Below are positions 5,372-64,000 of a stretch of 64,000 bases of DNA, piece after piece. Position 1 is the first letter of the stretch, and every line of letters starts with the position of its first letter. Origin of the DNA: Chrysopilus asiliformis. Taxonomy: Eukaryota > Arthropoda > Insecta > Diptera > Rhagionidae. The notes below the pieces were generated by a model. That model worked only from the letters and a program-made list of their open reading frames with translations. It ran no database searches and was not told where the DNA came from. The stretch is taken from NCBI GenBank assembly GCA_964034945.1, contig OZ035961.1, positions 32,080,184 to 32,144,183 of the forward strand. The letters run 5' to 3'. Made by a program: the position numbers and the translations under genes.

Positions 5372-7365
5372 TAAAACTCTTAATTTTGAATCCGAAGTGA
5401 AACGCATTGTATCGCATGACAACGCAACGATGAGCTGAGTGTTTTTAGGTGATTTATTTCCTAGTTATGTTGTGAGTTTTGAAGTAAAAATTACCACGAT
5501 TTTTTTATGCTATCGCAGGACCTCAAAAACATGCATCAAGAATTTAATTCCATCGAAATTGAAACAAATGATTTCTTCCTTTAAAAAGAATAAAACAATT
5601 ATTGTAGAAAAGCCTTGTAAAACAAAAAAGAGGCTTCTTCGATGCACATTATTTTTAAATTCAGGTACTCTATTTTTATATTTTTTTTTCTGAAAATCAT
5701 ATACCTAGTCAAGTTATAGATACTGATACATGAAAAAATTTGATGCCAAATGATGTTTTTGAAAACATTTTTTTTCTACCTATTGGGCTATTCAATAGCC
5801 ATAAATCATAGAACACACAATTCGAAAAGGCCACCATTTGATTCCACACTAGCTCTCAAACGATGGACTCAGCAGGGCTGCAAAATACGCGCTCGATCTA
5901 TTGGAGAGTTGCTCAATGTTTTGGGGGAAATTCTTCTTCAAGGACTCAATATTTTGGTGTCTTTTTGGTAGATCATGTTCTCTACAGTTCAACGGATTTA
6001 TAGTTCAATTGCTTCAGGTCTGGACTTCCGGGCGGCGGCGGACTTTTGGAGGGATGGACATCGACCATGTGTTCATCCCTCCAAAAGTCATGGACATGCG
6101 GAACTCAAAATCTTTTGTCATCCCTAACACCCTGGTGTAGTTCAATTCTACGTCCGACGATTGGTTCGATGCGTTACAAATGGTATATTAAATCTAATAT
6201 TCTAGTATATGATTCTCATATCGAGTATAATGAATAAATAAAATCAAGTAGGTACGAACATTACTTTTTGCTGTGTACATAAATGCAAACATGTAGTTCC
6301 CAATAGTTGTTCGAATAAAATAAAATAAAAAAATATATGAGTAGAGATATTCATGACTATAAAATCTTATTAATATACGGATGATCATCTGCGCGAATGG
6401 CAGGTAACTAGTCGGCTAGATAGGTAGGTAGGTGAACAACTTTCCGAAAAGCATCAATCATTGACTCGACTAACATAACAAAGTGTACTCACATCCTAAT
6501 ACATAATATGACGAATGAAAACTTACAAGGGATAAGTTAAATATAATAGATCTAATCGGTAATTAATTTATTTTTTAGCAGCGCGGTTTTCTTTACAGAG
6601 AATAAAAAATAAAAATAAGTATTTGAATGTGAATCGCTGAACTGCAGGCTTCTGCTATCTATCTTAAATTAATTATCAACAAATTTATCTGACATCTTTT
6701 GGTTTTTATACAATTTAACTTTTAAGATACGTTTTATAATGTGTCAGTGATCGAGGATCAATATACGATGGGCTTTCGCTGCTGTTTCTACTGTCATTGC
6801 TGCTGATGTTGTTGCTGGCCGCCCATTGAACATAAAACATACAGCATGAAACATATATATAGCATAGTCAAAGAGCAGTGCCCAAAGTTGAAACCAAAAC
6901 CGATCATACTGATGATGATGATGATGATGTTGTTGTTGTTGTTGGATGATGGTGTCTTTTGTATGTTGCGCAATTCCATACATAAACGGTGCGATGTGTA
7001 TAAAAATGAATTCCAAGAGTAAAATAAAATGACAAGCACAGCACAGTAACCAACCAACCCCAGATTCACTTTCACCGGTTGTCAGTTTTTTTAGGCGCGT
7101 ATTTTATATATCAGCATATTTATTATACAAACACATATGTCGGCATGTATGAAAGTCCCATAATGCATATCACATCGCAAAACATTTCTCTTCATTTTGA
7201 CTCGAGGTATATGACCTTTAGTTTATAGTTCCTGCCCAAAGACTTATTTTATTCATCCGATTGACCATATTCGGAAAACAAAAACATTGCTTTACATTAC
7301 GGTGAATTGTTTTTCCCCTTAGATCCGATGAGGTAATAATTATAATGAATAATGAATCGACTTAA
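5372..7365. other. Non-coding stretch with repeat fragments
   Basis: No gene is supported. At 6043-6089 there is a 14-bp perfect hairpin stem (CTTTTGGAGGGATG). It is followed to about 6200 by a fragment of a dispersed repeat related to 11830-12190, sharing the words 'catccctaacaccctggtgta' (in part) and 'ggttcgatgcgttacaaatg' (in part). A GAT/GTT trinucleotide run lies at about 6910-6944. Confidence 0.5.
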
Positions 7366-7384
7366 TGTATGTCCGTTTGTTTGT

Positions 7385-7585
7385 TTGTCTGCCCTTCTGT
7401 CTGCCCTTCTGTCTGTCCGTCTGTCTGTCCGTCTGTCTGTCCGTCTGTCTGTCCGTCTGTCTGTCCGTCTGTCTGTCTGTCCGTCTGTCTGTCCGTCTGT
7501 CTGTCCGTCTGTCTGTCCGTCTGTCTGTCCGTCTGTCTGTCCGTCTGTCTGTCCGTCTGTCTGTCCGTCCTTCTGTCTGTCCGTG
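7385..7585. repeat. TCCGTCTGTCTG tandem array
   Basis: Roughly 200 bp of CCGTCTGTCTGT-type units, bounded by imperfect TCTGCCCT and GTCCTTCTGT units. The 3' flank ('acacgataccttgagaacag') suggests the array is the core of a dispersed element different from the HINE family. All frames are open by composition only. Confidence 0.85.
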
Positions 7586-7659
7586 GACACGATACCTTGA
7601 GAACAGTAGTTTTTCCGAAGGGCCGAAAATTAGCGTGACGTGTTTTATGGACACCCCCT

Positions 7660-8379
7660 TATATTTTTTTAGGGCGCTGTAAATTTTTTTTGAGGTATAT
7701 TGTTAATTTACATGATTTTATTTATACGTGTTCGATTTAAGTCGCTAAAAAAATAAATTAGTAATATCAAAATTTCTAATTGCAAAATACGGTTTAAGGC
7801 CAATGAATTCATACATAAATATTTGTTTGTTTAAAACTATCTGCAGACTTCAATTAAAAATTTAAAAATTTCGAGTTGCATATCAACAGTCTCAAGTACT
7901 ACTTTCAAATATCTCTATAAATAAAAAAATGGAGTAATGATGACCTTTACTGAGGAAATATAGCATCACGATTATTTTATCAATAGCGAAACAACCTAAC
8001 ATTCCAATATCTTTTCATTTAATTGTAATATTCTTGAACTTGCAGCTTTGAAAGTGGCATCAAATTTATAGCTAACGATTATCGAAGTGCAAATTTATAG
8101 ATTTTAATAACAATAATGTCAATGCCGTAGAATGTTTTTATCCTCATATATAGATTTATCTGCAATATATGCTAAATGTAATGTTTTACACTTGTAATTA
8201 TACGTAATATAAGCGAACATTACTGCAAAGTCATTGAATCGTCTATTATTAATATAGCCTCGGTAATATGAATGAAGTAAATATTTTTGAAATATAAAAA
8301 CGTGTATTAGTTTCAAGTAAAATCTCGCGTTATGCGAATTCGCGTTATGGGAATTACGATCACTCATACTAACGATACT
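7660..8379. other. AT-rich stretch, nothing recognised
   Basis: I see no conserved coding sequence, no clear inverted-repeat termini and no RNA gene here. Confidence 0.5.
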
Positions 8380-24473: not shown

Positions 24474-27400
24474 TCAGTGATGTTTCTTATCATCGAAGTG
24501 ATTAAATTGATCATCTGAATCTGCTGGCTCGACTAGTTCAACTGCACAACGACGCGGAAACCAGCCGCGCGCTTCGACTTTCTTTCCAGGGGCTGGGGAT
24601 TTTTCAGGATTTGAATTACTTGTACTATCTAACGATTCTTGGGGTACACGTTCTCCGAACAGCCAATGCTTTCGCCAACGCGTTACTCTGACAGTGTCAC
24701 CAACTGCCAATTTAATGCGAGGTTCGTCCGTACATGGCGGCGAAAGACACACCCTGAATCCTTGAGAGAACAGCGGCACAAAACTTCCTGTTGCAGGCCG
24801 GATGACTTTGTAGGTCCGTGTTCGCGCCCGTTTCTCCGCCTTTTGAGCGATTTGCTCACGCTGCAAAGAGAGTAAATTTAATATTATTTTTGCAACAACA
24901 AAGTTTCCAATAACTACTCACAGTTAAAGTATATTGATCGGTATTATCGTTAATTGTCCACGTGACACCATCGCCAACGGGAGCACACGATAAATTTAAA
25001 ACCTGCTCAACATTTTCTCGTGTCCCCAAGTCATATGGAAAAACAAATTGCTCTTCGGTGCCTTCTCGGCGGCAGGTGGCTTTTTCCAGTATCCAATCTT
25101 CAATACCAGTTCGATTATTTAGGATTGCACGAATCTAAAGGATAATCAAAAATATAACCATAGTAAAAACGTATAAAAATCATAAGACCGAAATAAAAAT
25201 TCACAAAAATCAAGCACGATATCATGCGAATGCTTAGGAATTAGTCTATCAATTTGTACTTTCGTGTATACCTGAAAGAAGAGCAGCATACCAACAGCAA
25301 TTACGACTCCAATTGCCAATCCAAGGCTAAATATACACAAAATAAGACTCGGCAGGCTGAATTGTACCGTGGCTAAGTGGGATTGACCGTGATAGAAATA
25401 CCACTGCCGATGAATGCCTCGATAGAAGGCACAGATTAGGATAATTGAAGCCTGAATGCATCCCAGAACGGAGAATCCTAAGAAATATGTAAAGTAGGCA
25501 TGATTCGCCCATCCGACGCAATTGTTTATCCAAGGGCAATGATGATCCATCTTTTTAACACATCGGCCGCCTTGAAAATTATAAAATAATACAAAATTTC
25601 ATTTACTACTTGAATCGATACTATAAACACAGTGTGGCAATTACATTTTCGACAGTGATGTGATCTTGGTGCTTTGTAGCCTTCGCACACCTTGCAATAT
25701 TGCAAATGTTGAGTAAATCGCTCCTCCTTTATCGGATGCGACAACAGCAGCAGCATTGAAAAAAAAATCATACAAAAATTCAAATTAATGATTACTAAAT
25801 ACTTTTGGTTTTTTTTATTTATTTTTTGGTTAACTGCGGTAAAGTGGTTGCAGACAACCCTCTTTACTGAATATTTGCACGTTATTTGCATAATTATTTA
25901 AACACATTGCATGTTTCAAAAAGGATGCAGATTTAATGTTATTTCGCTTCTAAATTTATCCAAAAGGGAAATTGCTCTTGTGTTATAGAGTTCCGGTAGC
26001 TGTCAACATTATTCATGATTTCAATTACGTTGCTAATATAGCTGCACGTGATTAGCTATAATTTAACTAATTCTTTGATAATAATAGAAAAATTGAGGAA
26101 GAAGCAAGGGATCAAGCATTTTAACTAGAAAAGGGCATTTTTTTTGCTAACAATTATAGAAACCAATCTGACTGAAATTCAAAATTTCTGATGGAGCTAT
26201 GACATACCAAGTGTGTCGTATTGCAGTTTTTAATCACAACTAAAAAAATCCAGACGTTCTTACTTCTACAAAAAGTTCTTAATTCTAAAACCTTTATTTG
26301 TTTTAAGTGCTGTCCATAAAATAGCTCACGCCAATCTTGGCCCTTTCTTTGTCTAAAAACACGACACCTTATTTTAATAAAATTGTAAACACGGGGATTT
26401 TTAGGCTCACATTGAAAAAAATTGCTTGGAATTCAAAATAATGCTTCCGACTGGTGTTGCGATTTCGTGTTTTCAAAAAAAGGTTTTTTTTTAGAAATAT
26501 TCTCATTATTATATGAAAAATTCGATTTTGTCAAATTTCTTGCAAACATAATTCAAAGATAATAAATTTCACAACAATTTTGTTTTTTACCGAATATCAA
26601 TACTTTGTACCGTTTTCGAGATATCTATTAATTGGAAAATACTTTTATGTAAATTGATAACACTGGGGAACTTTTTTTTTTAATAAAAAAAATGCCTGCT
26701 GCATGAGATTTTTCAACCGATATAAAATATTTTTTATTGCTGATTTCAAATCTGAAACCGATTTAGGTCTAGTTTTTATATACTGCTATAAGGCCCAAAA
26801 GTCTCGGGCTTAATTTTTTTGTCCGACGATTAGTTCTATGCATTACAAATGAGGCCTTCAGCGCAATAACGGACCAACCCACATGTCGAAATCGTGAATT
26901 TCTTTGTGTTTGAATCACTATTGCGAGTGTGTTTTTAGATAAAAATGTTTGGATGCAAAAAAGAACATTTCAACGTTGAGTCCACACAATTTTTTTTTTC
27001 CAAAAATTTACAATCGATAATAGTTCAAAAGTGGAAAAGTTTCAAAAACTCGATTATGTGGCTTGGTCCGTTATTGCGCTGAAGGCCTCAAATGTTAGAG
27101 CAAACCTAAGTATTATACCCTATTATAGTTTCACCATGGATGTTTGTTGGTTTGTCTGTTTGAGATTACAAAACTCAAAAACTTCTAGACCGATTTTTAC
27201 GAGGTCTTTTGCAAAATAATCTGCATTGCCAGGAGCAGGTCTTTAGATATGTTAGATTGTTAAAATTCGAAACGGAAGGTCTTGAAAGGATAACGCAAAT
27301 ATCTGTTTTCCAATTTTTCTCGCAAAAACTGGCTTTGGGTAGGGATGCAACATCGTTCATAAAACCTCGATATATCGAAAATCGATGTTTTTTTTAAGGC

Positions 27401-30400
27401 GACATCGATGTCAAAAAACATCGTCGATACCTCGATGTTTTCCCGATGTTTTGAAAAAGTTAAATTTAATAAATAATTTAACCACCTGGCGGATGCTCTA
27501 CTGTGGGTTGAGTACACCCAGGTAGAATTAACACGGTTTTAATTCTTCTTATACGTTGAACCACCAAAAACCCATTAGTTTTCGAGATAATCGCAAATAA
27601 CTATTTTTTTGAAATACCGGCATATCTTCAAAACGGAGTTCTAGTAAAAGACATCAATGTAGCAAATTTTATTGTCTCCAAGTTTTGTAATACATAAGAC
27701 TACTGGAAAATTGTTAGTTTCGGAATAAATCGCAAAAAACCGCATAGTTTTTAAAAAGCCGCCGTTTTGGTTACTTCCGGTTAACGGATTTCCACATCAG
27801 GACCAAACTTCTCTGTAAAATTTCATGGCTAGCTCTGGTATTTTTTGCGAAATTTTATAGAAAGATGAAACCGAAAATTAATGCCAAAGAAAATTTAAAC
27901 AAATATAGCCATTAAATCTATCTAAAAACTAGTCCCTCTAGGCTTAAATTAGTTTCTCTACTAATTTTATGAAGAGTAATGTTCTAACATCGTGGATAGC
28001 AACATCGATACCTCGATATATCGGTCTGTTCAACATCGAGGTTAAAACTCGATATTTTTCAACGATACCTCGATTTTTTGCAAACATCGAGGTATCGTTC
28101 GCATCCCTAGCTTTCGGGTGTTTTCAGGTTGCTTGTCACGAATCTGGTGTTGGAATTTCAAAATTCGAAACAGAAGGTTCTGTAAGGATAACGTTTTTTC
28201 CCAAAAATTTTTAAAATATTTATGGTTTTTGGCATTCTAAAATTTATACAAAAAACTTTAAGCTGCCCTGAAAACCCATCAGGAGCCTGTTTCTGGTATG
28301 GAAAGCTGGCTCACCGTCATCAGTTTTACTCCACCAAAATCCTGTAAGCCTGCGTGGAAGCTGGCAAAGCAGGCTCTGATGACGGTGAGCCAGCTTTCCA
28401 TACCAGAAACAGGCTCCTGATGGGTTTTCAGGGCAGACATGTCCGACCTGTTGGGGGGAAATTTGGATGTGAAAACATCCGCAAAAATAATATAATTTTG
28501 TTGTTTTTGCAGACCTTATAAGCCGAGAAATTCCAATAGGATTCAATACTAAAAATGTATGGGTCGGTTTAGTATAGATAGCGTCGCACTACTAAATTTT
28601 AATTTCCTGCACATTTTAGAAGGACATGTCGACCGGGTCAATAGCGTGACATCAGTAAATCCTGCTTACGTTTTTATACCCGTATGGTGAAACCAAAGGG
28701 TATATTAACTTTGCCTTACCGTTTGTAACGCCAAGATCCCGTCATCGCACAAAAAAATAAATTACACCAGTGTGTTTAGAATGATAAAAATATTTAATTT
28801 TTGCATGTCCGTCCGTCTGTCTGTCTGTCTGTCTGTCCGTCTGTCTGTCTGTGGCGCGGATTGCGGGCGCACGGATTGAGCTAGAGACTTGAAATTTTGC
28901 GTGGATCCGTTTTTCGTAAAATGCGAGGCTAAGTTCGTTAATGGGCAAAAATGGACCATTAGGGGGGGTACCCCCCATACGAACGAAATCGTTTTTTGTG
29001 AATATCTCATAAACGGTGCATCTTATCAAAAAAGTCCAAGAACAAAAGTTATTTAGGATATGATTCTACATAAAACTCCCATACATCAAAATCCGATTGG
29101 AATAAATTTTAAAAAATCTTATTGGAAAGTTTGACTTCAAATTGGAATTTTGGTATAACTGTTCGAATTTTGATACGAATATCACCATACGGGTCTCCAA
29201 TGATTGCCAGATTGGCAATTATAGCTTTTGTTATGTTTTAATTCACTTTTAAGGTAATTTTGTCACAAAACTGAATTTAGGAAAAAAATGCTTTTACAAA
29301 AATAATTTTTTTTCGAAAATCTCTGTTGAGGCTTCCAGTTAAATTAATTTTTATTAATGAAGTTTTCCTACACCTAATATCAACTGCTTTTCAATGTTAT
29401 TACCATCCAAATATTTATTTCTAATATTTATGTGTTATGCCCAGTATATTTTTGGCAATAAAAAATAATCGTTGGAATAAAATTTTATGTAATTCAACAG
29501 CTTGAGCTCGGTTTTATTTTCCGAAAGTCTTGTAGAAGTCACTCTTATCAAAACATAAACCCAGCCATTTCCGATTTTAACCTCGGGCAAAAAGGAAAAA
29601 CCGCTAGAATCCATAGAAAGGAAAGGGGCAATTGCCTTATCAAAAAGAAAACCTGTCTTCCTGTTGAAATACCCGCCATTCGTAATTCAATTCACAAAAA
29701 TGCTAACTGAGATTTTCATGACTTGACATTCCACAATGTAATTGCGATAAAAAAAAATTACTCTTGGCTTCTGACCCCATAACTTCTATGAATGGCTCCG
29801 TCCCTTGAATGCCACAAATTGACGATAGCGTTTTGTGGTGTGTTCACACGCAATACGGTGACAAAAGTTTTGTATTTACTTCGGCTAAATTGTTCCATGC
29901 AAACAAAATAAGGATAAGACATTGGAGATGTATAGGTTAAGCACAGCGAGACGCGATTTCAGTTCAAAATGCATAAAATTGTGTAATGATGCAATTATTT
30001 TTTAGTTGCATGATGGCCAACCATACAAAGATTTCAGGTTTGAATAACTAAGGAAATTTTTTAAGAAAATTTAAAAATGTTGGTCTTTTAAAAACGGATA
30101 GTGACATAAAAATTTAAGTAATACAAAATTTCTTTAATGGAAACTGGATATAGACTTCCCGTGGAGTGCTGGCGGTACTAAACCCTTAAAAATGAGGCTA
30201 TCAGAGCAAAAGTGGCCTAACCCACATAATCGAGTTTTTGAAGCTTTTCCACTCTTGTACTATTATTGACTGTAAGTTTTTGAAAAAAAAAACGTTGAAA
30301 TGTTCTTTTGTGCATCCAAGCATTTTTATCTAAAAACTAGCTTGCGTACCCGTCGTTGCCGGGTTAAGTTTTTTAAATTTTTTTTTTGATCTATGTTGGA

Positions 30401-32995
30401 GCTAAACTTCAGGCCAATCGGCTCGGTAGTTTCCCCGCGAAAGGGTAACATATAGGAAGAGCTAAGTTTCGAGATTACTTTACCCCCTCCCCTTACTCCC
30501 CCCCCCTCGGGCTACTTTTTAATGGGTCTATGTTGGGGCTGGACCCCCGACGAACATCTATGCCAAATTGCAGGCCAATCGGTTCAGTAGTTTCGCCGCG
30601 AAAGAGTAACATAGCGCAAAAACTAAGTTTCGAAATCACTTTATCCCCTCCCCTTACTCCCCCCACCCTTCGCGCTACTTTTACGTATGCCTATATTGGA
30701 ACCAGAACTACCACAGACACTCATGCCAAATTTCAAGTCAATTGGTTAAGCCGTTTTTACGTGAAATAGGAACAGACAGACAGACAGACACCAACTCATT
30801 TTTTTTTATATATTAGTATGATATGATGATTACTCAACGTTTAAATGTTTTTTTGTGTATCCAAACATTTTTTTCTAAAAACACACTCTCAATAGTGATT
30901 CAAACACAAAAAAAATCACGATTTCGACATGTGGGTTGGGCCACTCTTGCTCTCAACGCTTCAAATGTGCCATATTTTCCGTACTCGAAAATCGTGGAGA
31001 TTTTCATACGAAAAAGCGCGAAAAAGATTCAAATCAAAAATTTGCGTAACGTATTTTATAGACAGTCCTTAACGATATTTTCCTCTCAATGAAATCACCC
31101 CCTGTCCGTACTAAAAGAAAAGTCAGTGGCGTAACTACGATTTTTAACTTTGGGAAGCAGTGAGTTACAAAGAAAATAGATTTCATGGTCTTTTTTAGCC
31201 AAAGAATGAAAATCGATTAATAGCTAGTCTCGAATACAGTATATCAAGTAAAACTCTTAACTAAAAGATTAAACTCAATTAAATTAAAATACATACCACT
31301 ATACCTAAATGACAAAAAGAAAGTTCAGTCAAACTGTAATATTAGCTAAAAATCTAATCAAAACTAATTTTTAGCTAAATCCCCTTCTTAACTACATTAA
31401 ATTTCCCATTTAAAATTCAAATTCCGAAAAAGACCATTTTTCTTCGTATAAAAGGGAATTTGATTAACAATAAGGAAATATGTATTAATCTACCGTTCCC
31501 GCCTAATTCGGTGATTAATCAACGACAGATCAGTGTTCCGTAAAAAAAAAACTCCTCACAACATGAAAGAATTAGCAATCGTCAGCCACACTTGGGTCAA
31601 TTAATTCAGTTAAGTTGGCGTAATTAGTGGTCCGGTCCGAAAATAATTCTTGACACGGCTGACCGAATGAATGAATGAATGTCGGTTACGATTAGCATGT
31701 TCTTTGTGCACCTGTAAGTAGGGAAGAGTAATACAAACCTCTGGCTTCCATCCGAATGGCAGGAACCCCGGCCCCGTCACCGTTGCCAAGACGTAATTAA
31801 AGGCCGACAACGATGAAAGTGCAAGGAACAGGGACTGATTTACGAATCCACCGAAGCTCAAATTCGGTGGCCACCACATCGAATTCATGTAGAGCGTCAT
31901 CAGTGTCACACATTTTATTATGCCTGCAAAAAGTGAGAAAATAATCGAATTAGCTTATTAGTAACTTTTATATAGCTGACGGTTGTTTGGCAAATCTAAC
32001 GGACAGGGAGTTGCCGAAAATTTGTGTGGGGGCGTTGAGCGATGACCAGCAATTTGTGAGTGGCGCTGGAGGTTCACAAGAATGCCAGGAATGCTACCTG
32101 CCAGCTATGATTTAAGGGACAGAGGAACCAAAATATTGAATCGGCCACAGGAGTTGCTGGTTAGGTTCGCATCAACAACTGATTGCTATCAGGCATGTGG
32201 AAGGCAAAAAAGGATATTCGTTAAGGAGCAATTTCATCCACTTATCCATCGTCCACATCTAGTGATTTGCCTATTCTTTCGACATCGTTCAGGAATTTAA
32301 GTTCGGGCGAGGCTCAAAACCGTCGTCAATGTTTACAGAATTTCTTGGTTGCTCCTTTGAAGGGGGTGCGAAATGCGAAGGGTGCATTTAAAAGGAGTGA
32401 CCGCTGTTGACAAAGAAACTCCTTCGCCGCATGGACACGTGAATTACAGCCAAGACGGACGGAAGGATGGATTTCAAAAAGGGAACGGGCAGGTGGATCA
32501 TTCCAAGTGGACGACAATTTAAGTGGCTCGTAAGTTCTTATCAAAACACGCAATCAGCTCCTTAGCCGTGTGTTTGTTTTCGTTGTTCTTAGACTCTCGC
32601 TTTCAGTTTCAATATATATGAGCCCCCTTCAACTGCGTCACTGCCTACAGTAGGCTCACCTTCGATACTACGGCGAGATAAGCCTCCATAATAGGTGGTC
32701 AGACTGTTTTACGTGTGTTAATGTTGAAGAATGTCGAGATAAAGAAGTTTATTACTGAAATTAAAAAACCAAGAGTAGAATACAATACGTCTGATCTGAA
32801 GAGCTATAAGAAAATTAAGCTTGACAAAAGGAAAACCACTTTCAATGCAGTAAAAAATTGTTTTTTTCTACTAGGAAATTCCAACGAGGAAGGAACTTTG
32901 TTATCCAAATTCGTGATGGCATCAGGTTACTTACTAATAGCGATTATTGGACCCCAATGTAAAAAGCGACGAAATCCCGAGAGGCTGGCGCTCAT
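24474..32995 (-). CDS. ZDHHC6: Palmitoyltransferase ZDHHC6 (six exons)
   Basis: Predicted ER-membrane DHHC S-acyltransferase, 408 aa (human 413). Exons in gene order are 32995-32935, 31923-31739, 25726-25645, 25570-25272, 25134-24922 and 24860-24474; all have GT-AG introns and keep frame. It starts [17 protein letters not shown]. Two membrane spans lie in exons 1-2 ([17 protein letters not shown] and [19 protein letters not shown]). They are followed by the cysteine-rich domain [20 protein letters not shown] and the catalytic DHHC at residues 118-121, two further spans in exon 4, the TGxE-like motif NNRTGIEDW near residue 217, and a C-terminal SH3-like region with [10 protein letters not shown]. 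It ends DDKKHH, so KKHH is a KKXX-type ER retrieval signal like the human KKNR. The tiny exon 3 and the split Cys codon at 25645/25570 were needed to restore the motif. Introns 1 (1 kb) and 2 (6 kb) are filled with repeats. It converges on PHYHD1. Confidence 0.95.
25727..26850. other. ZDHHC6 intron 2, first part
   Basis: No gene or complete element was recognised. The end (about 26800-26850, 'tccgacgattagttctatgc') resembles the dispersed repeat fragments near 6150 and 11860. Confidence 0.5.
26851..27089. mobile_element. MITE with long inverted ends, copy 1
   Basis: The ends GAGGCCTTCAGCGCAATAAC and inverse extend about 34 bp. AAAT lies on both sides and may be a 4-bp duplication. A diverged second copy is at 30194-30963. 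Confidence 0.7.
27340..28109. mobile_element. hAT-type element (8-bp duplication)
   Basis: The ends are TAGGGATGCAACATCG and CGTTCGCATCCCTA, with GCTTTGGG on the left and GCTTTCGG on the right as a near-perfect 8-bp duplication. The sub-terminal parts repeat 'acctcgatatatcg'. No transposase reading frame remains. The centre carries sequence ('cattagttttcgagataatc') that recurs near 55600, so another repeat is probably nested. Confidence 0.65.
28263..28436. repeat. Perfect 60-bp inverted repeat in ZDHHC6 intron 2
   Basis: The arms 28263-28322 and 28377-28436 are perfect inverse copies, beginning CTGCCCTGAAAACCCATCAG, with a 54-bp spacer. The arms are GC-richer than their surroundings and do not match the other repeats in the window. 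Confidence 0.9.
28671..29237 (+). mobile_element. HINE-like element, copy d
   Basis: A complete forward copy from TTTTTATACCCGTATGG to the hairpin TTGCCAGATTGGCAA and GCTTTTGTTATG, with a short CCGTCTGTCTGT core at about 28810-28852. It lies in ZDHHC6 intron 2. Confidence 0.75.
29238..30193. other. ZDHHC6 intron 2, non-repetitive part
   Basis: Nothing recognised: no coding sequence and no clear element termini. Confidence 0.5.
30194..30963. mobile_element. MITE with long inverted ends, copy 2 (interrupted)
   Basis: The ends GAGGCTATCAGAGCAAAAGT and the diverged inverse ending CAACGCTTC are flanked by AAAT. The interior matches copy 1 ('acgttgaaatgttcttttgt'). A Helitron is nested at 30337-30821. 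Confidence 0.65.
30337..30821 (-). mobile_element. Helitron-type element, family B, copy 2
   Basis: On the minus strand it starts TCATACTAATATATAAAAA and ends with the CCCGGCAACGACGGG hairpin and CTAG. It is complete, 485 bp, non-autonomous, and sits inside a MITE. Confidence 0.8.
30964..31738. other. ZDHHC6 intron 2, last part
   Basis: No gene or element recognised. The part next to 31738 is the donor side of intron 2 (GTTTGT). Confidence 0.45.
31924..32934. other. ZDHHC6 intron 1
   Basis: A one-kilobase intron with a good GTAAGT donor at 32934 and a TTTTTGCAG acceptor ending at 31924. Reading frames inside it on both strands have no recognisable homology. Confidence 0.7.
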
Positions 32996-53580: not shown

Positions 53581-53914
53581 TTTTAATAAATAGTATTTTA
53601 GGGGTTTGTTCATCCTGCTTTTAGAAGGAAATTTTTTCTATGGTTGGCAACCCTGATTTCAGCATTCAGTTTTTGTGTTTTGTTGTTTTAGCAGCACGTT
53701 GTTTTGGTATTATTTTTGGTTTTTTTTTATTTTAATTTTCAATTTTAATTGATTTCGGCTATTTTCGTTCGTTTTTATTTAATTTTATTTTCTTTTTACT
53801 TTCTTCTACGGAGTATAATAAAGTATTGTATTCATGAAAAATTTCGACCTCTTAATTTTGCCTAAAAAACATTTCCCGATCACTCCTGAGTCGATTGGAG
53901 TCATATTTAAAAAA

Positions 53915-55289
53915 TGTCTTTCTGTCTGTCAGTCTGTCTGTCAGTCTGTCTGTCAGTCTGTCTGTCAGTCTGTCTGTCAGTCTGTCTGTCAGTCTGTCTG
54001 TCAGTCTGTCTGTCAGTCTGTCTGTCAGTCTGTCTGTCAGTCTGTCTGTCAGTCTGTCTGTCAGTCTGTCTGTCAGTCTGTCTGTCAGTCTGTCTGTCAG
54101 TCTGTCTGTCAGTCTGTCTGTCAGTCTGTCTGTCAGTCTGTCTGTCAGTCTGTCTGTCAGTCTGTCTGTCAGTCTGTCTGTCAGTCTGTCTGTCAGTCTG
54201 TCTGTCAGTCTGTCTGTCAGTCTGTCTGTCAGTCTGTCTGTCAGTCTGTCTGTCAGTCTGTCTGTCAGTCTGTCTGTCAGTCTGTCTGTCAGTCTGTCTG
54301 TCAGTCTGTCTGTCAGTCTGTCTGTCAGTCTGTCTGTCAGTCTGTCTGTCAGTCTGTCTGTCAGTCTGTCTGTCAGTCTGTCTGTCAGTCTGTCTGTCAG
54401 TCTGTCTGTCAGTCTGTCTGTCAGTCTGTCTGTCAGTCTGTCTGTCAGTCTGTCTGTCAGTCTGTCTGTCAGTCTGTCTGTCAGTCTGTCTGTCAGTCTG
54501 TCTGTCAGTCTGTCTGTCAGTCTGTCTGTCAGTCTGTCTGTCAGTCTGTCTGTCAGTCTGTCTGTCAGTCTGTCTGTCAGTCTGTCTGTCAGTCTGTCTG
54601 TCAGTCTGTCTGTCAGTCTGTCTGTCAGTCTGTCTGTCAGTCTGTCTGTCAGTCTGTCTGTCAGTCTGTCTGTCAGTCTGTCTGTCAGTCTGTCTGTCAG
54701 TCTGTCTGTCAGTCTGTCTGTCAGTCTGTCTGTCAGTCTGTCTGTCAGTCTGTCTGTCAGTCTGTCTGTCAGTCTGTCTGTCAGTCTGTCTGTCAGTCTG
54801 TCTGTCAGTCTGTCTGTCAGTCTGTCTGTCAGTCTGTCTGTCAGTCTGTCTGTCAGTCTGTCTGTCAGTCTGTCTGTCAGTCTGTCTGTCAGTCTGTCTG
54901 TCAGTCTGTCTGTCAGTCTGTCTGTCAGTCTGTCTGTCAGTCTGTCTGTCAGTCTGTCTGTCAGTCTGTCTGTCAGTCTGTCTGTCAGTCTGTCTGTCAG
55001 TCTGTCTGTCAGTCTGTCTGTCAGTCTGTCTGTCAGTCTGTCTGTCAGTCTGTCTGTCAGTCTGTCTGTCAGTCTGTCTGTCAGTCTGTCTGTCAGTCTG
55101 TCTGTCAGTCTGTCTGTCAGTCTGTCTGTCAGTCTGTCTGTCAGTCTGTCTGTCAGTCTGTCTGTCAGTCTGTCTGTCAGTCTGTCTGTCAGTCTGTCTG
55201 TCAGTCTGTCTGTCAGTCTGTCTGTCAGTCTGTCTGTCAGTCTGTCTGTCAGTCTGTCTGTCAGTCTGTCTGTCAGTCTGTCAGTCTGT
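53915..55289. repeat. Perfect 12-bp tandem array (CTGTCTGTCAGT), about 114 units
   Basis: Nearly 1.37 kb of an invariant 12-mer. Because the unit length is a multiple of three and has no stop in four of the frames, long frames of about 470-490 codons appear on both strands; these are not genes. The flanks ('caagatttctcaaaaactaa', 'agctagcgccatgaaatttt') look like a dispersed element of which the array is the core. Confidence 0.97.
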
Positions 55290-56200: not shown

Positions 56201-56756
56201 CACATCGTGTACTAGAAAACCACATATATATGTGAAATTGTGATGCGCACATGCGATATGCGCATGCTGCGTTGGATACCGTGTACTAGCGATATATATG
56301 CAACCATTCATATGTGCACTCAAATGTAACCACAGCATATGCGACCACATTGGTTACATATGGACATATGGATTTTGGGACAAAAGACACATGCCGTGTA
56401 CTAGCACATTTTTCCCGTATGCAACCACTGTGTCACATACGAAATGTGTACCCAATATGCGACACCTTCTAGTGACGTCAGAGCCACATTTATATGTGGC
56501 TTTTTACATGCCGTGTACTATAGGCTTAAGAAACCAATTGCTGATCAGTTAAACCCGATTATTCTTAACAATACCACTATAAGCTTCAGTAAAAAAGTTA
56601 AAAGCCTTGGAATAATTTTCGACGAACTTCTTTCCTGGGATTACCACATCAACTCCATTATTAAACGGACCTTCAGCGTTATTAGTCGGCTAAATTCTCT
56701 TAAATTATATTTACCAGTGGATATAAAAACTAGACTAGCCTTTGCCTTAATAATGC

Positions 56757-57321
56757 CTTTTTATACCCGTATGGTGAAACCAAAGGGTATATTAGATTTG
56801 CCTTACCGTTTGTAACGCCAAGATCCCGTCATCACACAAAAAAATGAATTACACCATTGTGTTTAGAATGATAAAAAAAGTTGAATTTAGCATGTCCGTC
56901 CGTCCGTCCGTCCGTCCGTCCGTCTGTCTGTCTGTCTGTGGCGCGGATTGCGGGCGCACGGATTGAGCTAGAGACTTGAAATTTTGCGCAGATCCGTTTT
57001 TCGTAAAATGCGAGGCTAAGTTCGTTAATGGGCAAAAATGGACCATTAGGGGGGGTACCCCCCATACGAACGAAAACTTTTTTTCTGAATATCTCAAAAA
57101 CGGTGAATTTTATCAAAAAAGTCCAAGAACAAAAGTTATTTAGGATATGATTCTACATAAAACTCCCATACATGAAAATCCCATTGGAATAAATTTAAAA
57201 AAATCTTATTGGAAAATTTGACTTCAAAGTGGAATTTTGATACAACTGTTCGCTGTTCACTTAAATCACCATACGGGTCTCCAATGATTGCCAGATTGGC
57301 AATTATAGCTTTTGTTATGTT
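56757..57321 (+). mobile_element. HINE-like element, copy j
   Basis: A complete forward copy inserted in a T-run of the LINE coding sequence (CCTTT on the left, TTTTTAATTATGG on the right). The core is CCGTCCGTCCGT at about 56894-56938. The LINE frame resumes on the far side. Confidence 0.8.
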
Positions 57322-57850
57322 TTTAATTATGGTTGTGAGGTTTACTCGGGGTGCTCTCAAGCTAATCTTGTGCGACTGCGTAAATGCTTTAATTGTGTGA
57401 TGAGGTTCGTTTTCAGTCTAAAGCTAGCATCACACGAGCACACAAAACCCTCACACGTGTGATAACTGACGTCACGAAAAAAACTCAACACACATTTCAC
57501 ACACATCTGACACGACACGTCCTTACACTTGAAAAGTGTTGTTATCAGACGGTGTGAAATTTTTTTCCACACAATCGGATTTTTGTCCCAAAACGTGTTA
57601 ACGTCGCTAGTCTTCCCACGAAATTTGGCACACAATTACACACTGTGTTACGCAGATTGAGTAGTTATCAGACGGAGTGAAACGTCTCAAAAGGTGTGAT
57701 GATGGAAGATGTGTGACAGCAGTCGAAATCGTCTGATTTGCTATCAGACGGTGTGATAGCTCTCTGACATTTTGTGTACTTTCCTCGGTCATTTTGACAA
57801 GCAATTGTGCGCGGTTTTCAATTTGTGAAGAAAAATCAAATTAAATTAGA

Positions 57851-58114
57851 ATGTCAAAAAGGAAATATGAGGAGATGATGGATATGGCGATTTTGGCAGC
57901 CTATATTTTGGAAAGCAGTGGCGACGACGAGTCAATGGGTCGAAAGCGCAGTTGTTGGACAAAGGATTGGGTGTCGCGTCGCGAGAAGGAGGGTTTCTTT
58001 GCCAAATTGATGGTGGAATTGCCCTCTGAAGAACCCGAATTGTATCGAAATTTCTTACGGATGTCGGCCGGTCAATTCGATCTTTTGCTAACAATTGGTG
58101 AAGTCGCAGATAGA
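57851..58114 (+). pseudogene. PIF/Harbinger transposase, N-terminal fragment
   Basis: MSKRKYEEMMDMAILAAYIL opens the frame. RSCWTKDWVSRREKEGFFAK and YRNFLRMSAGQFDLLLTIG match the N-terminal region of Harbinger nucleases ('W...W...R...G....L..EL...D...Y.NF.RM....F..LL'). The frame is cut at about residue 88 by HINE sequence. The DDE domain is absent, so no active enzyme is encoded. Confidence 0.8.
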
Positions 58115-58350
58115 AACATAACAAAAGCTATAATTGAAAACCCGTTTGGTGATATGGCATTATTTCAAGTTTAATCGAACAGCAAACAGTTGTATCAAAA
58201 TTCCACTTTAAAGTCAAACTTTTCAATAAGATTTTTTAAAAATTCTCCGAATCGGATTTTGATGTATGGGAGTTTTATGTAGAATCATATCCTAAACAAC
58301 TTTTGTTCTTGCACTTTTTTGATAAGATGTACCATTTTTAAGATATTAGC
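58115..58350 (-). mobile_element. HINE-like element, copy k (fragment)
   Basis: From ACATAACAAAAGCTATAATTG through the 'ggttatgtagaatcatatcc'-type block to 'aagatattagc'. It covers the hairpin-side half of the family, here with the hairpin deleted. It lies inside the Harbinger transposase gene. Confidence 0.7.
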
Positions 58351-59320
58351 TATAACACAGAGCGTGTGAAATGGCACGAATTCATGCCAGTTTACACATT
58401 GGGTCATTTTCCCACAGTCTTAACACAGACCGAAAAATGTCATCACACATACCACGTTTTACACAGGGTTATCAGACGGAGGCAAAATTCGTTTAACACA
58501 CGTCAAAAAAATTGTCGTAACACAGGTTATCACACGGTGTGTAAACAAAAATTCTGTCACAATTTAAGCAACTGGTGTTACAATTTTGTGACGTCAAAAT
58601 TACGTCAGTCATCACACGTGTTAAGGTTTTGTGTGCTCGTCTGATGCTAGCTTAAGTAAAACAGACCATATTTCGGAATTTGTTGTAAGATTTCTAGGCT
58701 GTGATCTTGTCACTCACATTAACTTGCGGTGTCTAATTTTTCTGCATAAGACTCTTTACTCTGGTACTCCATCGTTTCTGCTAAATTATATTTCTTTCAT
58801 TAGATCTACCAGGGTTAAAGACTTAATAGTACCGAGGCGCCGTAGCCTAATAATGGACAAATCGTTTTTTGTCAGGGTAACCATCATGTGGAACTCTCTA
58901 TCTCAGGTGATCAGGGCAGAACGGAATTTTAATATTTTTAAAAAGAAGGTTTTCTTTGAATTTGCGAGGCCTCCTGAGTAATTAAGTAGGGGTTTTTCTC
59001 CTTGTTGGTCATTTGTCTGGCTTTCTTTATTTGTTTGCTTTTTGGTTCTTGGGATCAGTTGCTTCATTTTATTATATTTGCTGTTACATTGTCATATTTA
59101 AACTTTGGCGTCTTTTTACAATTCTATATGGGTAGTGGATCAATTAGTCATTACTGTGTCATAAAATTCTATTAAATGTATTTGTATATATATACTTTTT
59201 TTACATTACTGCTGTAAATTTGTACCATAGCTGTTAAGTATTTCATGTATTAGTCTTAAGAACCTTTATACAAGGCATTATGCCTTTTGGTTTATAAATA
59301 AATTATTATTATATATTATA

Positions 59321-60492
59321 AAATAAGATGAAATGAAAATCACTAAATTCAATAAATAATAAATTTTTGCATATCCGTCCGTCCGTCTGTCCGTCCGTCT
59401 GTGGCGCGGATTGCGCGCGCACGGATTGATCTACAGACTTGAAATTTTGCGCAGATTCGTTATTCGTAAAATGCGAGACAAAGTTCGTTCATGGGCAAAA
59501 ATGGACCATGGACCATTAGTACCCACTATACGAACGAAAACGTTTTTACGAATATCTCAAAAACGGTGCATCTCATCAAAAAAGTGCAAGAACAAAAGTT
59601 ATTTAGGTATGATTCTACATAAAACTCATATACATCAAAATCCGATTGGAATACATTTTAAAAAACCTTTTTAGTTAATTGTTTATTTGTACGAAAATTT
59701 AATATAAATAGTAATTTTGTGCTTAGTGTTTTTAGTTATTTAGTGATATTTTTCAGTGGTTGAAGTGATTTCCGAAAAGAAGAAAAGGAAAAAGTGAATA
59801 AATGTGAGAGAAATTGTCGATTTTACTTCAACCGCGGAAAAGTACGTTCACGGTTCGGGGCAAAACTTTAAAAATTAGTATTATTTTGTATCATTTTAAC
59901 ACGATAACAGCTACTTTAATAGCAAGTGTGAATACCCCTCTGAATAAAGGTTACAATTATTATTTTGTGGATCTGTGATTATAAGAAAATATTTTGAAAA
60001 TAGCGTCAGAACCTGATATCAGATTCACCACACTCTGGTTCTTAAGTCGTTCTAGTGGAGACAGCATGGAGATAGCAAGACATTTCTAATTTATTGGGCA
60101 AAAATATGCAAAAAAAAATTGTCTGTAGTGTAATTTTAATCGAGACGAAATCTTACGAGGAAATTTTATTGGAAAACAAATTATTTCCTATGATCCGCCG
60201 TTCACCAAATATAAATTTTTGGGAAACTGAATCTCAGGAAAAAAATACGCCAAATTTTTGTTTTCATTTCATTGATATTTGACAGTTTACTTGCACCTTC
60301 GGCTTCGGTTAAACCTTCAATCAAAACTTCGGCTTAATTCCAAAGATGGCCAAAGCCGAAGCGGATAAATCGGCCGGATTCTACTTTTCAACAATTTTCT
60401 GTAAAGAATTTGATTTTTTGTGAAGATTCTGTGAATAATTTGATTTTTGGTGAAGATTAAGATATGATTGTGTTATTTGTGAATGTTTTCTA
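59321..60492. other. Stretch with HINE and Harbinger fragments
   Basis: 59362-59672 is a HINE fragment (plus orientation, CCGTCCGTCTGT core to 'cgattggaatacatttt'). 59877-59939 is a lone end of the 47977-48435 MITE family. The rest is AT-rich without genes. At 60300-60380 'ggcttcggtt' and 'cttcggctta' words form a short imperfect repeat. Confidence 0.55.
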
Positions 60493-60873
60493 CACTGAGA
60501 GAAAAATGTCACATTATTTTAAGAAGATATGCACATTGACCTATTTTACCATGATTTCACCTTAAAACGTACCTTTTAAGACGATTTCTTATTAAAATAT
60601 CACCTTATTTCCATAAAGAAAATCTATTTAAAATTTTGAATGGTTTTCACTTTAAATCAATGTGTATTGTCAGATTAAAATACGATTTTCAAGGGGTCTG
60701 TCATATAATTTCAAGTTTTAACATGATTGCCACATTGAAATAAAATGTAATCTGTTTAAAACAATGTGATATGCATATAAAACGTAGTAAGTAAAAGTCA
60801 ATTGGTTCTAGAATTTCGCGCGGAGTGGTCGCAGATCGGTGTAATTTTAATGTTTTGAGTTTTGTTGTGCGAA

Positions 60874-62742
60874 ATGGATCCATTTCAATTACCAAATACT
60901 GAAAATATCGATATAGTGCCGCCTATAACTTGGGATGAAACAGAATTGAATGAAGTTCAAAGTCTTTTTAGGGCTTGGGGAGTGTCCGAATCAGGCTGTG
61001 CCTTGTTAAAAGTGTACGGGCTAAATACGAGACGTATTCTAGAAGAAATGGAAATGTCTCAAATAGACAAATTTTTCGTTAACATCGATGGATGCGGCTA
61101 TTTTGGTGATCGTATTCTTTTCACGTCAGGATTAAAAAAGTGGAGAAGAGAAATTGTAAGGAAAACCCGTATTGAAATTTACACATCCTTAATAAATTAA
61201 AATTTAGGATAAACCCATGGCTTGTGATGTGGACACTTTATCAGCGCCCACAACAAGGCGGATACTGGACTGTTTAGAAACTATTTCTAATAAATTCAGT
61301 AATACTTCGAGTAACGTCGGCTTAAATTCAGAAGATAAAAACCTTTCGACGTGTGCTTATGACGTTTCTAACATCCTTAAATCCACAATTAGGGGACAAA
61401 TGGTCATCGCATACTACGAAAAGAACGGTTTACTGGACAGCAAAAGCCAAAGAGATTTGACACACTGCATTGTTGAGCAATTTATGGGTAAAAACAAAAT
61501 TACTTACCGTGATATGAAGAATTGGGCTACTGCTATCGAACACAGATTTCCAACTGAAAAAGCAGTAAGTGACTAACCAGATAAAAGACAACTCTGAGCA
61601 AAATTTTTGATTTTATGATTATTTTACAGTCGACATATTTCATGGACCGAAAGTCGGGGAAAAGGAATCCGACTGGTAAATTGCATTCTCGTTGGTGTAA
61701 CGCCGAACACTCATTGAGTTCCAACAACGAAATTGTAACTCAGGAGGATGAAGAGGGTTTACCCACATGTACATCAGACCTAGCAGAAGGTTTAGTTTTA
61801 AAATTATTCTCTTAAAATAACTCCCAAACTAACAATTTTTAGAGCAATTTTTAAATAAGAAACATTGGCTTCAAAACAACTGTTCTCCTTGGCAAACGGT
61901 TCGAGAATACTGGGAAATTACGGCCACATTAAGAATTAAACAATTTAAATGCGATTCAAATACTAATTTGTCGACTCTTTTAAAAGAATGGCCACGATAT
62001 AATGACTCTGGTGGTCATGAGCTGGTAATTTTAGAGAAATTTTTGACGGTGTTTACTTTATAAAGTTTGGTTTTATTTTATGTAGATTGATATCGATTTC
62101 AAAGTTATTCATTTTGGAAAGGAGGATCTTTTAATCAGCCAATTCGATTCGTTCATTCCGAAAATCCTCAGTATCTTTAAAACTGAAATAAAAGACAAAT
62201 CATCCAAAGAGCTATTAAAATGTTTGGAAATGGAAAGTCTTACAAAAGGTATATAAACATTATTCACATTAAGTGTTTATTAATTTTTGGAAATTTTAGA
62301 CTCTAAACACTGTATTGTTGCAATGCTGTTGCATGCAGTTCTTCAGCCAATTCGTCTCAGCAAATTCCATAAGCCAACGATTTGTGACGCCCAGAGCGAT
62401 TTCATTTTACATGTGCGAACAACAAATGATATAATACCCAAACTAAATAAAGTGACAAGTGAATTCATGGCAGCTAAAAAAACAATTCAACCAAGAATCG
62501 TCGTTGTCGGCCCAGAAATATGTAAGATATCGGAATTTTATGTTTATTGCGATGGTTTAAAGTTCAAATTATGTTCCATTTTAAAATGCATTGATTTGAT
62601 TATTAAAATGTGTTATGTTTATCAAATCGAATACTCACCGATAAGTAAATTAGTTTGGATTTTTTTCGAGCAGTACTTCTTTGAATTCAATTCTGAAACA
62701 TTTTCGGCTGTTTCAAATTTAATTAATAGGTTAAAACAATAA
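60874..62742 (+). CDS. SAMD3-like protein of a mobile element (six exons, intact)
   Basis: 528 aa. Exons are 60874-61155, 61208-61564, 61630-61789, 61843-62024, 62086-62248 and 62300-62742, with short GT-AG introns (47-65 bp) that all keep frame. Exon 1 (residues 1-94) looks like a SAM domain: ETELNEVQSLFRAWGVSESG, then LNTRRILEEMEMSQIDKF. Residues about 150-225 have the block DLTHCIVEQFMG...WATAIEHRFPTEKASTYF and KSGKRNPTGKLHSRW. The C-terminus has IVVVGPEICK followed by KFKLCSILKCIDLIIKMCYV and VWIFFEQYFFEF. This order resembles the fish 'SAMD3-like' proteins, as I recall them. The ATG is chosen as the first Met in frame before the SAM region. The molecular role is unknown. The whole gene lies inside an inverted-repeat element, and the C2H2 gene starts nine bases later. 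Confidence 0.8.
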
Positions 62743-62751
62743 ATTTTTAAA

Positions 62752-63280
62752 ATGCCCGAACTAATTTGCTTTTCGTGTGATAACATATTCTCGACTGCCA
62801 AAGTATTGATCAATCATTTAAAAAGTGTCCACGGGACACCTAGTATTTACAAATTCAAATGTAAACAAAACCATTGTAGGCAAAAATTCCAAAATATTCA
62901 TGCGTTTAAAAAACACATGATGAAACATGAAAAAGATATAGAAAATTTAAGTAATAACCGATTTGAAAGTTCCGAATGTGTAGATGTTCGCAAAGATTTA
63001 GTAGTTGATGTTTCCAATATGACTGAATCGGCTGACATAAAATCATTGTCAATTGATGCTCTAACATCTGATTTTAAAAAATCCATGTTGTTATTTACAC
63101 TTAAATTGCATGAAAATTTTTTCGCGAAAAGCTGTTTTAGAAATTCAAAATTATGTATCTGGAAATGTTATTTTTAATTATAAAATAATTTGTTTAACAT
63201 ATGTGGATGGACCACCAATTCATTTTTATCTACTTAATAATGGACTGAATGTGATAAGATTGAAAAAGTATTGGATTTAA
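62752..63280 (+). pseudogene. C2H2 zinc-finger gene of the same element, frameshifted and deleted
   Basis: The ATG is nine bases after the SAM gene's TAA. Two C2H2 fingers can be read: LICFSCDNIFSTAKVLINHL with KSVH, and FKCKQNHCRQKF...HAFKKHMMKH. Then comes a linker and SDFKKSMLLFTLKLHENFF. In the first frame this stops at 63177, but a shift near 63120 continues as SRKAVLEIQNYVSGNVI and ends near DGPPIHFYLLNNGLNVIRLK at TAA 63278. In the related proteins I recall, the first of these pieces is followed by a region of several hundred residues before a C-terminus of the GPP type. The likeliest reading is a large internal deletion plus a frameshift. The original product may have been the element's main enzyme; this is inference. 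Confidence 0.65.
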
Positions 63281-63845
63281 TGTATTAAGGAATACTCATT
63301 TGCAATATACAGAGTGATTTAATTTAAACAAAAATGGAGTACAAATTTAAAAAAAATATTTTCTATTTTTTTTAGGATAGAAGAATATGTTTTGTAAATT
63401 TAAAACAATAAAATAAAAACTATAAAATATATATTTCTTCGTTTTTTTTTAAATTTTCAATCCCTTGAAGCAATCCCTTTTAAGCATCAATTTTTTTAAG
63501 TACAAAATAATTTTGTAATCTTAAAAAAAAATGGAATGCCGGCTTAAATATTTTTAACAGATTTTATAGAAAATCCTCTAAAATTCAAAGGAAAATCTAT
63601 TTGTTTCAAACAGATTTCACATAGTTTTTATGTGCTATAAGATTAAAATAAAAAGACAATCCTTTTAAAAAATAAGTATATTTCACCTTAATTTAAGATG
63701 ATTAGCACCTTATCTCGCTGTCAAAATTTTAAAAGGATTCTCTTTATGGTTTTAAGTTGACTTTCTTCTTGGATGAAAACCATAAAGATTTCCTCTTGAT
63801 TTTGTTCCATGTTAGGTGCATTTTAGGTGATCTTTTCGCTCAGTG

Positions 63846-64000
63846 TAGTCTCGCTGGAGTCAGATGTTGAATTTAATTTAACCCTCATACTGTCCTCGGG
63901 TCATTTCTGACCCAAATTCGATTTTAATTAAAAGTGTTTTCTCAACTACATGAAAAATGTTTCTATGGTGTAGGCCCAGTGAACAAATTTCTTTTGAATA
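63846..64000. other. Window end with a piggyBac-type terminus
   Basis: TTAACCCTCATACTGTCCTC at 63879 looks like the left end of another TTAA-targeting piggyBac-like element that continues past the window. Confidence 0.45.

Follow-up and report, generated by a model that had tools for sequence, protein, structure and literature searches.

The maize element Spm/En encodes two proteins, the transposase TNPD and TNPA, and has CACT ends, subterminal repeats and 3-bp target duplications; the terminus of EnSpm/CACTA elements proper is CACTA or CACTR. The element described here belongs to the fly Chrysopilus asiliformis, whose assembly comprises 429 Mb in 42 contigs, and lies within a 64-kb stretch (C2:32080184-32144183) that is called the window throughout. 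Positions 60493-63845 of the window very probably (about 0.87) represent a cut-and-paste DNA transposon of the CMCT (EnSpm/CACTA-like) kind, in a non-autonomous, internally deleted copy. The element has two genes, one for a protein that resembles a sterile alpha motif (SAM) protein and another for a putative transposase with two C2H2 zinc fingers.

According to passages of PMC12730594, the CMCT clade (EnSpm/CACTA, Mirage, Chapaev, Transib, Plavaka, ESTA and Lanisha) has the series D, D, CxxC, HxxxH, E, in which C(2)C and H(3-4)H follow the second D and precede the last E; most members have CA..TG ends, and target duplications are of 2-5 bp. Full-length relatives of the C2H2 protein in the fly genome carry both the cysteine and the histidine motif as well as D, D and E in 5 of 5 cases (assigned by motif), and CA..TG ends with 2-bp duplications are found in the window family and in two others, families 2 and 3. 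Because motifs, ends and duplications agree, the element is placed in or beside this clade, and not in the undescribed type proposed by an earlier interpretation of the letters of the window, made without database searches (the sequence-only reading). The wider clade is already known; the novelty lies in the SAM gene, a regular companion of the transposon. The two N-terminal C2H2 fingers, the SAM-type gene and the lack of a Pfam Transposase_21 match over its cut-off set the element apart from the clade. From EnSpm/CACTA proper it differs in that Transposase_21 and DUF4218 gave only weak matches, none over the cut-off. The termini read CACTG in the window family and family 3, and CACTC and CACGC in family 2. 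Spm/En is similar in having two proteins, CACT ends and subterminal repeats, but its duplications are of 3 bp, against 2 bp here. Tc1/mariner elements, which duplicate TA throughout, were rejected as candidates, since five of the 16 two-ended copies are flanked by CA or TG. The hAT and Zisupton elements, with duplications of about 8 bp (in passages of PMC12730594), were rejected likewise, the duplication being 2 bp in 16 of 16.

The TRC elements (SmTRC1 and those of Aedes and Tribolium), presented as animal CACTA relatives in passages of PMC1636069, are the closest described animal elements, yet their ends and motifs are different. They share 2-bp duplications, CxxC and a D-x-(L/M)-H motif, and their two aspartates are some 80 residues apart, compared with 93 here. 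In contrast, TRC ends start with CCC and the present ones with CAC; motif I has D-G and W-P in TRC and D-D-F/L without W-P here; and the TRC motif L/V/I-D-X-L/M-H-X3-L-G is replaced by V/A-D-I/A-M-H-D-x2-E-G, so that MHDxxEG stands in place of HxxxLG (PMC1636069). The fungal, EnSpm-like ESTA elements share TA duplications and CMCT motifs, but their described families carry TET/JBP, and the passages of PMC12730594 that describe them mention no SAM gene.

Ends, copies and target duplications

A search of the host genome returned 42 matching rows at 22 places, including five full-length copies at 98-100% identity. Sequence was fetched for 20 of the 22 places (C3:74373118 and C2:80442297 were left out), and ends were counted in the 16 copies that have both (L017, L026, L027 and L028 do not). 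The terminal inverted repeats have the form CACTGAG..CTCAGTG, and at the 5' end the first 16 bases are identical across all 16 copies. In the window copy, the 5' repeat, CACTGAGAGAAAA, occupies 60493-60505 on the forward strand, and the 3' repeat, which reads inward as CACTGAGCGAAAA, occupies 63833-63845 on the reverse strand; 15 of 16 bases pair between 60490-60505 and 63833-63848, the flanking CTA included. The same dinucleotide stands on both sides of every two-ended copy: TA in 11, CA in three and TG in two, where the chance of matching 2-bp flanks is 0.078 per copy by window composition. Neither CA nor TG is palindromic, so the flanking dinucleotide must come from duplication of the target and lie outside the repeat, and the TA that had been noticed on both sides of the window copy (60491-60492 and 63846-63847, no strand) is a true 2-bp duplication. 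The family has moved in the past, duplicating a 2-bp pyrimidine-purine (YR) target. Its two-ended copies measure 704 to 3733 bp, a size spread like that of internal-deletion derivatives, and the five full copies differ pairwise at only 6 to 24 sites per about 3.3 kb (gaps aside), which indicates that the spread was recent.

The window alone could not have established this. The end pattern with up to two mismatches occurs nine times in the window against 7.9 expected, although its mismatch-free matches are the two ends only, and the best subterminal arms are equalled by 30 of 3000 random pairs of 400 bp; the inverted ends are therefore no better than chance by this measure, and became certain only through the genome copies. 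Taken with the annotation of relatives as uncharacterised genes in Eupeodes and Haematobia, such figures would suit a host multigene locus of SAMD3-like and zinc-finger genes with inverted ends by chance. That explanation is refuted, and retains almost no probability, by 22 dispersed places with shared exact ends and target duplications. The sequence-only reading had proposed a DNA transposon with paired ends, and had reasoned that unique ends, or a single place without copy number variation, would instead mean a host locus; when the copies were collected and their ends aligned, many places and many internal-deletion copies were found in this genome, and the proposal stands.

Subterminal 'caccttaa' words had also been reported, and this was right in part. 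The word CACCTTA occurs six times in 64 kb (both strands), and four of these are inside the ends of the element, at 60558-60564 and 60601-60607 on the 5' side and at 63684-63690 and 63706-63712 on the 3' side; all four are on the forward strand, so that the orientation in the two ends is direct and not inverted. The longer reading CACCTTAA holds for just two of the four. The window shows no further copy of the element. At another place (L020), the right flank of a window-family deletion copy adjoins a repeat that is also present in L045, with a frame that looks mariner-like by eye.

The C2H2 gene and its full-length relatives

The second gene of the window copy opens with an ATG and two C2H2 fingers, as the sequence-only reading had recognized; both fingers have Pfam matches below threshold, and the frame of this N-terminal remnant (62752-63177, forward strand) is lost near 63118. 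The remainder (63119-63280, forward strand) continues in the next frame to a C-terminal end and stop that align with the full-length relatives, the D, D, E core being missing. Comparison with these relatives suggests that the gene is a transposase with its catalytic middle deleted, where the same reading had expected the catalytic part to lie: intact relatives have D, D, CxxC, HxxxH and E, and a sister copy (L014) keeps the HxxxH..E part and the C-terminus of the window family's own transposase. In three of the five full copies (L010, L011 and L013) the deletion leaves a single 177-aa frame that joins the fingers to the C-terminus; this frame has a stop in L012 and a frameshift in the window copy. 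The 177-aa product might, as a speculation, be a repressor form. Since the window copy is unable to make an active transposase, it must have moved in trans.

A genome search with the 122-aa finger part gave 20 rows, six in window-family copies (the window's own included) and 14 elsewhere (L035-L048), the latter often within long open frames. Once adjacent genome sequence had been added, five of these gave proteins of 809-829 aa, 33-37% identical to the first of them, and D-D, GDNLGL, CRxC, MHDxxEG, PKxHxxxHY and FEAKH are invariant in all five. The catalytic-type residues D290/291, D384, C404-x2-C407, H609-x3-H613 and E633 are equally invariant, D, D and E having been assigned by motif. Frames of at least 790 aa without a stop contain 17 of 54 transposase rows. 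One full-length frame, of 814 aa, occupies C3:36150251-36152650. The C2H2 fragment found no match at E 10 among 169 candidates in a protein database; scans of genome contigs with the transposases gave pattern matches, none confirmed as a relative, and scans of viral contigs with the fragment, a motif and the transposases gave pattern matches in all but one case and no confirmed relative.

Two observations concern individual relatives. In L037 (C1:13019613-13026440) the transposase gene is interrupted near residues 606-609 by about 4.35 kb, a further insert, while the gene of L038, a copy 99% identical to it, runs without a break. More distant transposase relatives with long open frames are found at C2:21621289, C2:27255980 and C3:105813771 (827 aa), and at C4:36677738 and C1:87262346 (859 aa). 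A search with one query found no SAM gene with the 827-aa and 859-aa relatives, whose partner may be another or a diverged one.

The SAM gene and its association with the C2H2 gene

The first gene of the window copy had been described as intact over six exons, and so it is: all introns are GT..AG, and the product has 528 aa with no internal stop. By their splice sites, the exons lie on the forward strand at 60874-61155, 61208-61564, 61630-61789, 61843-62024, 62086-62248 and 62300-62742, the sixth including the stop and being the portion that searches match most often in other families. The N-terminus appears SAM-like, since exon 1 yields a structure model (pLDDT 77) of SAM-like look with a five-helix SAM-type fold. 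The SAM identity given by the sequence-only reading is upheld in this respect; Pfam gave the protein no SAM match even at E 10. A whole-protein model (P0002, pLDDT 42) was too poor for use. Searches of a protein database with the protein and its profile found two fly proteins only, and scans of genome and viral contigs gave pattern matches, none confirmed as a relative. The horn-fly homologue matches DUF4769 (PF15992), a family without assigned function, over the cut-off (E 1e-5), but the window SAM protein does not match it.

A SAM gene is present beside the C2H2 gene at all 14 of the other C2H2 loci, in two gene orders: its exons are at most 1.5 kb upstream on the same strand at nine loci, and it is downstream at five (L048, L043, L044, L040 and L047). 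The 14 are not independent, because the groups L036-L038, L039/L041/L042, L043/L044 and L045/L046 each consist of near-copies. Across the genome, rows obtained with one query each were clustered to 42 transposase loci and 68 SAM loci. Twenty-two of the 42 have a SAM locus within 5 kb, always on the same strand, with the SAM gene first at 18 and the transposase first at four; six of the 22 are window-family copies, and 16 of the 36 others are paired. Random placement gave a mean of 0.03 pairs and no more than two in 1000 trials.

Families 2 and 3 were traced end to end, and each has CAC..GTG ends, TA duplications and both genes. Family 2 is represented by copies on C3 and C2 (7493 and 7528 bp, 97.3% identical) whose similarity stops, at either end, no more than 2 bp from the TA; its ends are CACTCAGAG and CACGCAGAG, and the SAM gene precedes transposase frames of 814 and 831 aa. 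Family 3 has copies on C2 and C5 (5912 bp, 99.88% identical over this length and the TAs) with TA on both sides and flanks that are not collinear, the ends CACTGAAAATAATG and CACTGAAAGAAATC, and the transposase first. A different subterminal word is characteristic of each family: CACCTTA in the window family, AAATAGTT (10 of 12 occurrences in the outer 500 bp) and TTCATCAA (16 of 22 in the outer 450 bp), counts that are descriptive because the words were chosen after inspection. In the L040 stretch, the sole candidate pair of inverted repeats has unmatched flanks (TG and CA).

These families bear on whether the two genes are mere passengers, neighbouring host genes captured between the ends of some other transposon to form a pack-TIR element. 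PMC8277862 reports such capture between terminal inverted repeats in animals, and it would suit the incomplete transposase of the window copy and a SAM gene without constraint in recent copies. However, families 2 and 3, whose transposases are about 35% identical, hold the same pair within CAC..GTG ends of their own, with either gene first, and a D, D, E-type series is part of the C2H2 protein; the passenger explanation is largely refuted and very improbable.

Several results weigh against reading the locus as a deleted CMCT transposon with a SAM partner. The sequence-only reading had called for empty sites, and none was found: the joined flanks of the window copy match only themselves or the right-hand repeat (40 rows scored), and no copy in the fetched loci has an empty site. 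Nor did the assembly yield an intact master copy of the window family. The sequence-only reading had also called for profile searches of full-length C2H2 homologues, and these put no profile over its cut-off for the core: the E value of DUF4218 is 0.029 in one core of the three, in the region HxxxH..E, and 0.085 in one complete protein of the five, and DUF1548 scores better in one of the five (E 0.0012, below its cut-off), a match taken for chance. Transposase_21 at E 10 has four rows in the genome, none over the cut-off; two lie inside transposase relatives (E 0.078 and 0.92), and the best (E 0.0045) lies elsewhere. Nothing was found in the PDB by sequence search with the core, and the whole transposase gave finger-end matches only, among the 60 of 61 matches listed. 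The variable codons of the SAM gene in the four intact window-family copies comprise 11 nonsynonymous and one synonymous, no sign of purifying selection since the copies spread. Lastly, 20 of 42 transposase loci have no SAM partner and 46 of 68 SAM loci no transposase (one query each); the unpaired loci are partly fragments and partly intact divergent transposases, and the latter indicate that the pair may not be universal.

It is a serious possibility, if short of an even chance, that the C2H2 protein is the transposase and the SAM protein a cargo gene without part in movement, aiding the transposon otherwise. It would then resemble the TET/JBP genes, which fungal transposons of many lineages carry according to passages of PMC12730594. 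The unpaired transposase loci, the variable gene order and the unconstrained SAM gene are all consistent with cargo, whereas the presence of the pair at all 14 C2H2 loci nearest the window family, across deep divergence, speaks against it.

In the preferred interpretation the C2H2 protein would act as the transposase, its fingers binding the element ends and its RNase H-like DDE core excising the element and inserting it, with a stagger of 2 nt, at a pyrimidine-purine dinucleotide. The SAM protein may help to pair or regulate the ends through SAM-SAM contacts, a role like that of TNPA in Spm and one that the subterminal repeats of each family might serve. The window family would have lost its catalytic middle and spread in trans by means of an intact transposase. 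A tentative and broader proposal, which we hold to be rather doubtful as a whole, is a separate CMCT lineage, widespread in animals, with an obligate pair of a C2H2-DDE transposase that targets YR and a SAM partner that polymerises to hold the ends; many SAMD3-like/DUF4769 host genes of insects and fish would be its accessory gene or domesticated relics. Fish proteins that we presume to be similar serve as a lead only. Passages of PMC2996927 include a puffer-fish BAC table in which 'similar to sterile alpha motif domain containing 3; similar to zinc finger protein' are adjacent, which agrees with what the sequence-only reading supposed of fish. A literature search by title and abstract found no SAM-carrying DNA transposon; Repbase Reports and most subscription journals were outside this search, and an earlier description is possible. 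By title and start of abstract, PMC8805230, PMC2996927 and PMC11346364 are not about such an element.

Surroundings of the window copy and implications

Other repeats and a presumed host gene occupy parts of the window. Just upstream of the element, 56405-58981 contains reverse-transcriptase-like frames that by eye are a non-LTR retrotransposon remnant. A tandem array of about 1.4 kb (53907-55280) reads CQSV/TDRQ in several frames, and short arrays similar to it are found at 7297-7702 and 1023-1418. Exon-like frames on the reverse strand at 24474-31954 include a cysteine-rich motif of DHHC type as well as an SH3-like region, and presumably belong to a host gene for a ZDHHC6-like palmitoyltransferase.

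These results place a SAM gene family of many copies, and the zinc-finger genes beside it, in a transposon setting. Genes annotated in this way, here and in related genomes, should be regarded as mobile unless the contrary is demonstrated. Family 3, apparently recent, with two copies 99.88% identical, is suited to testing whether a self-associating partner is needed for CACTA-type transposition in animals.
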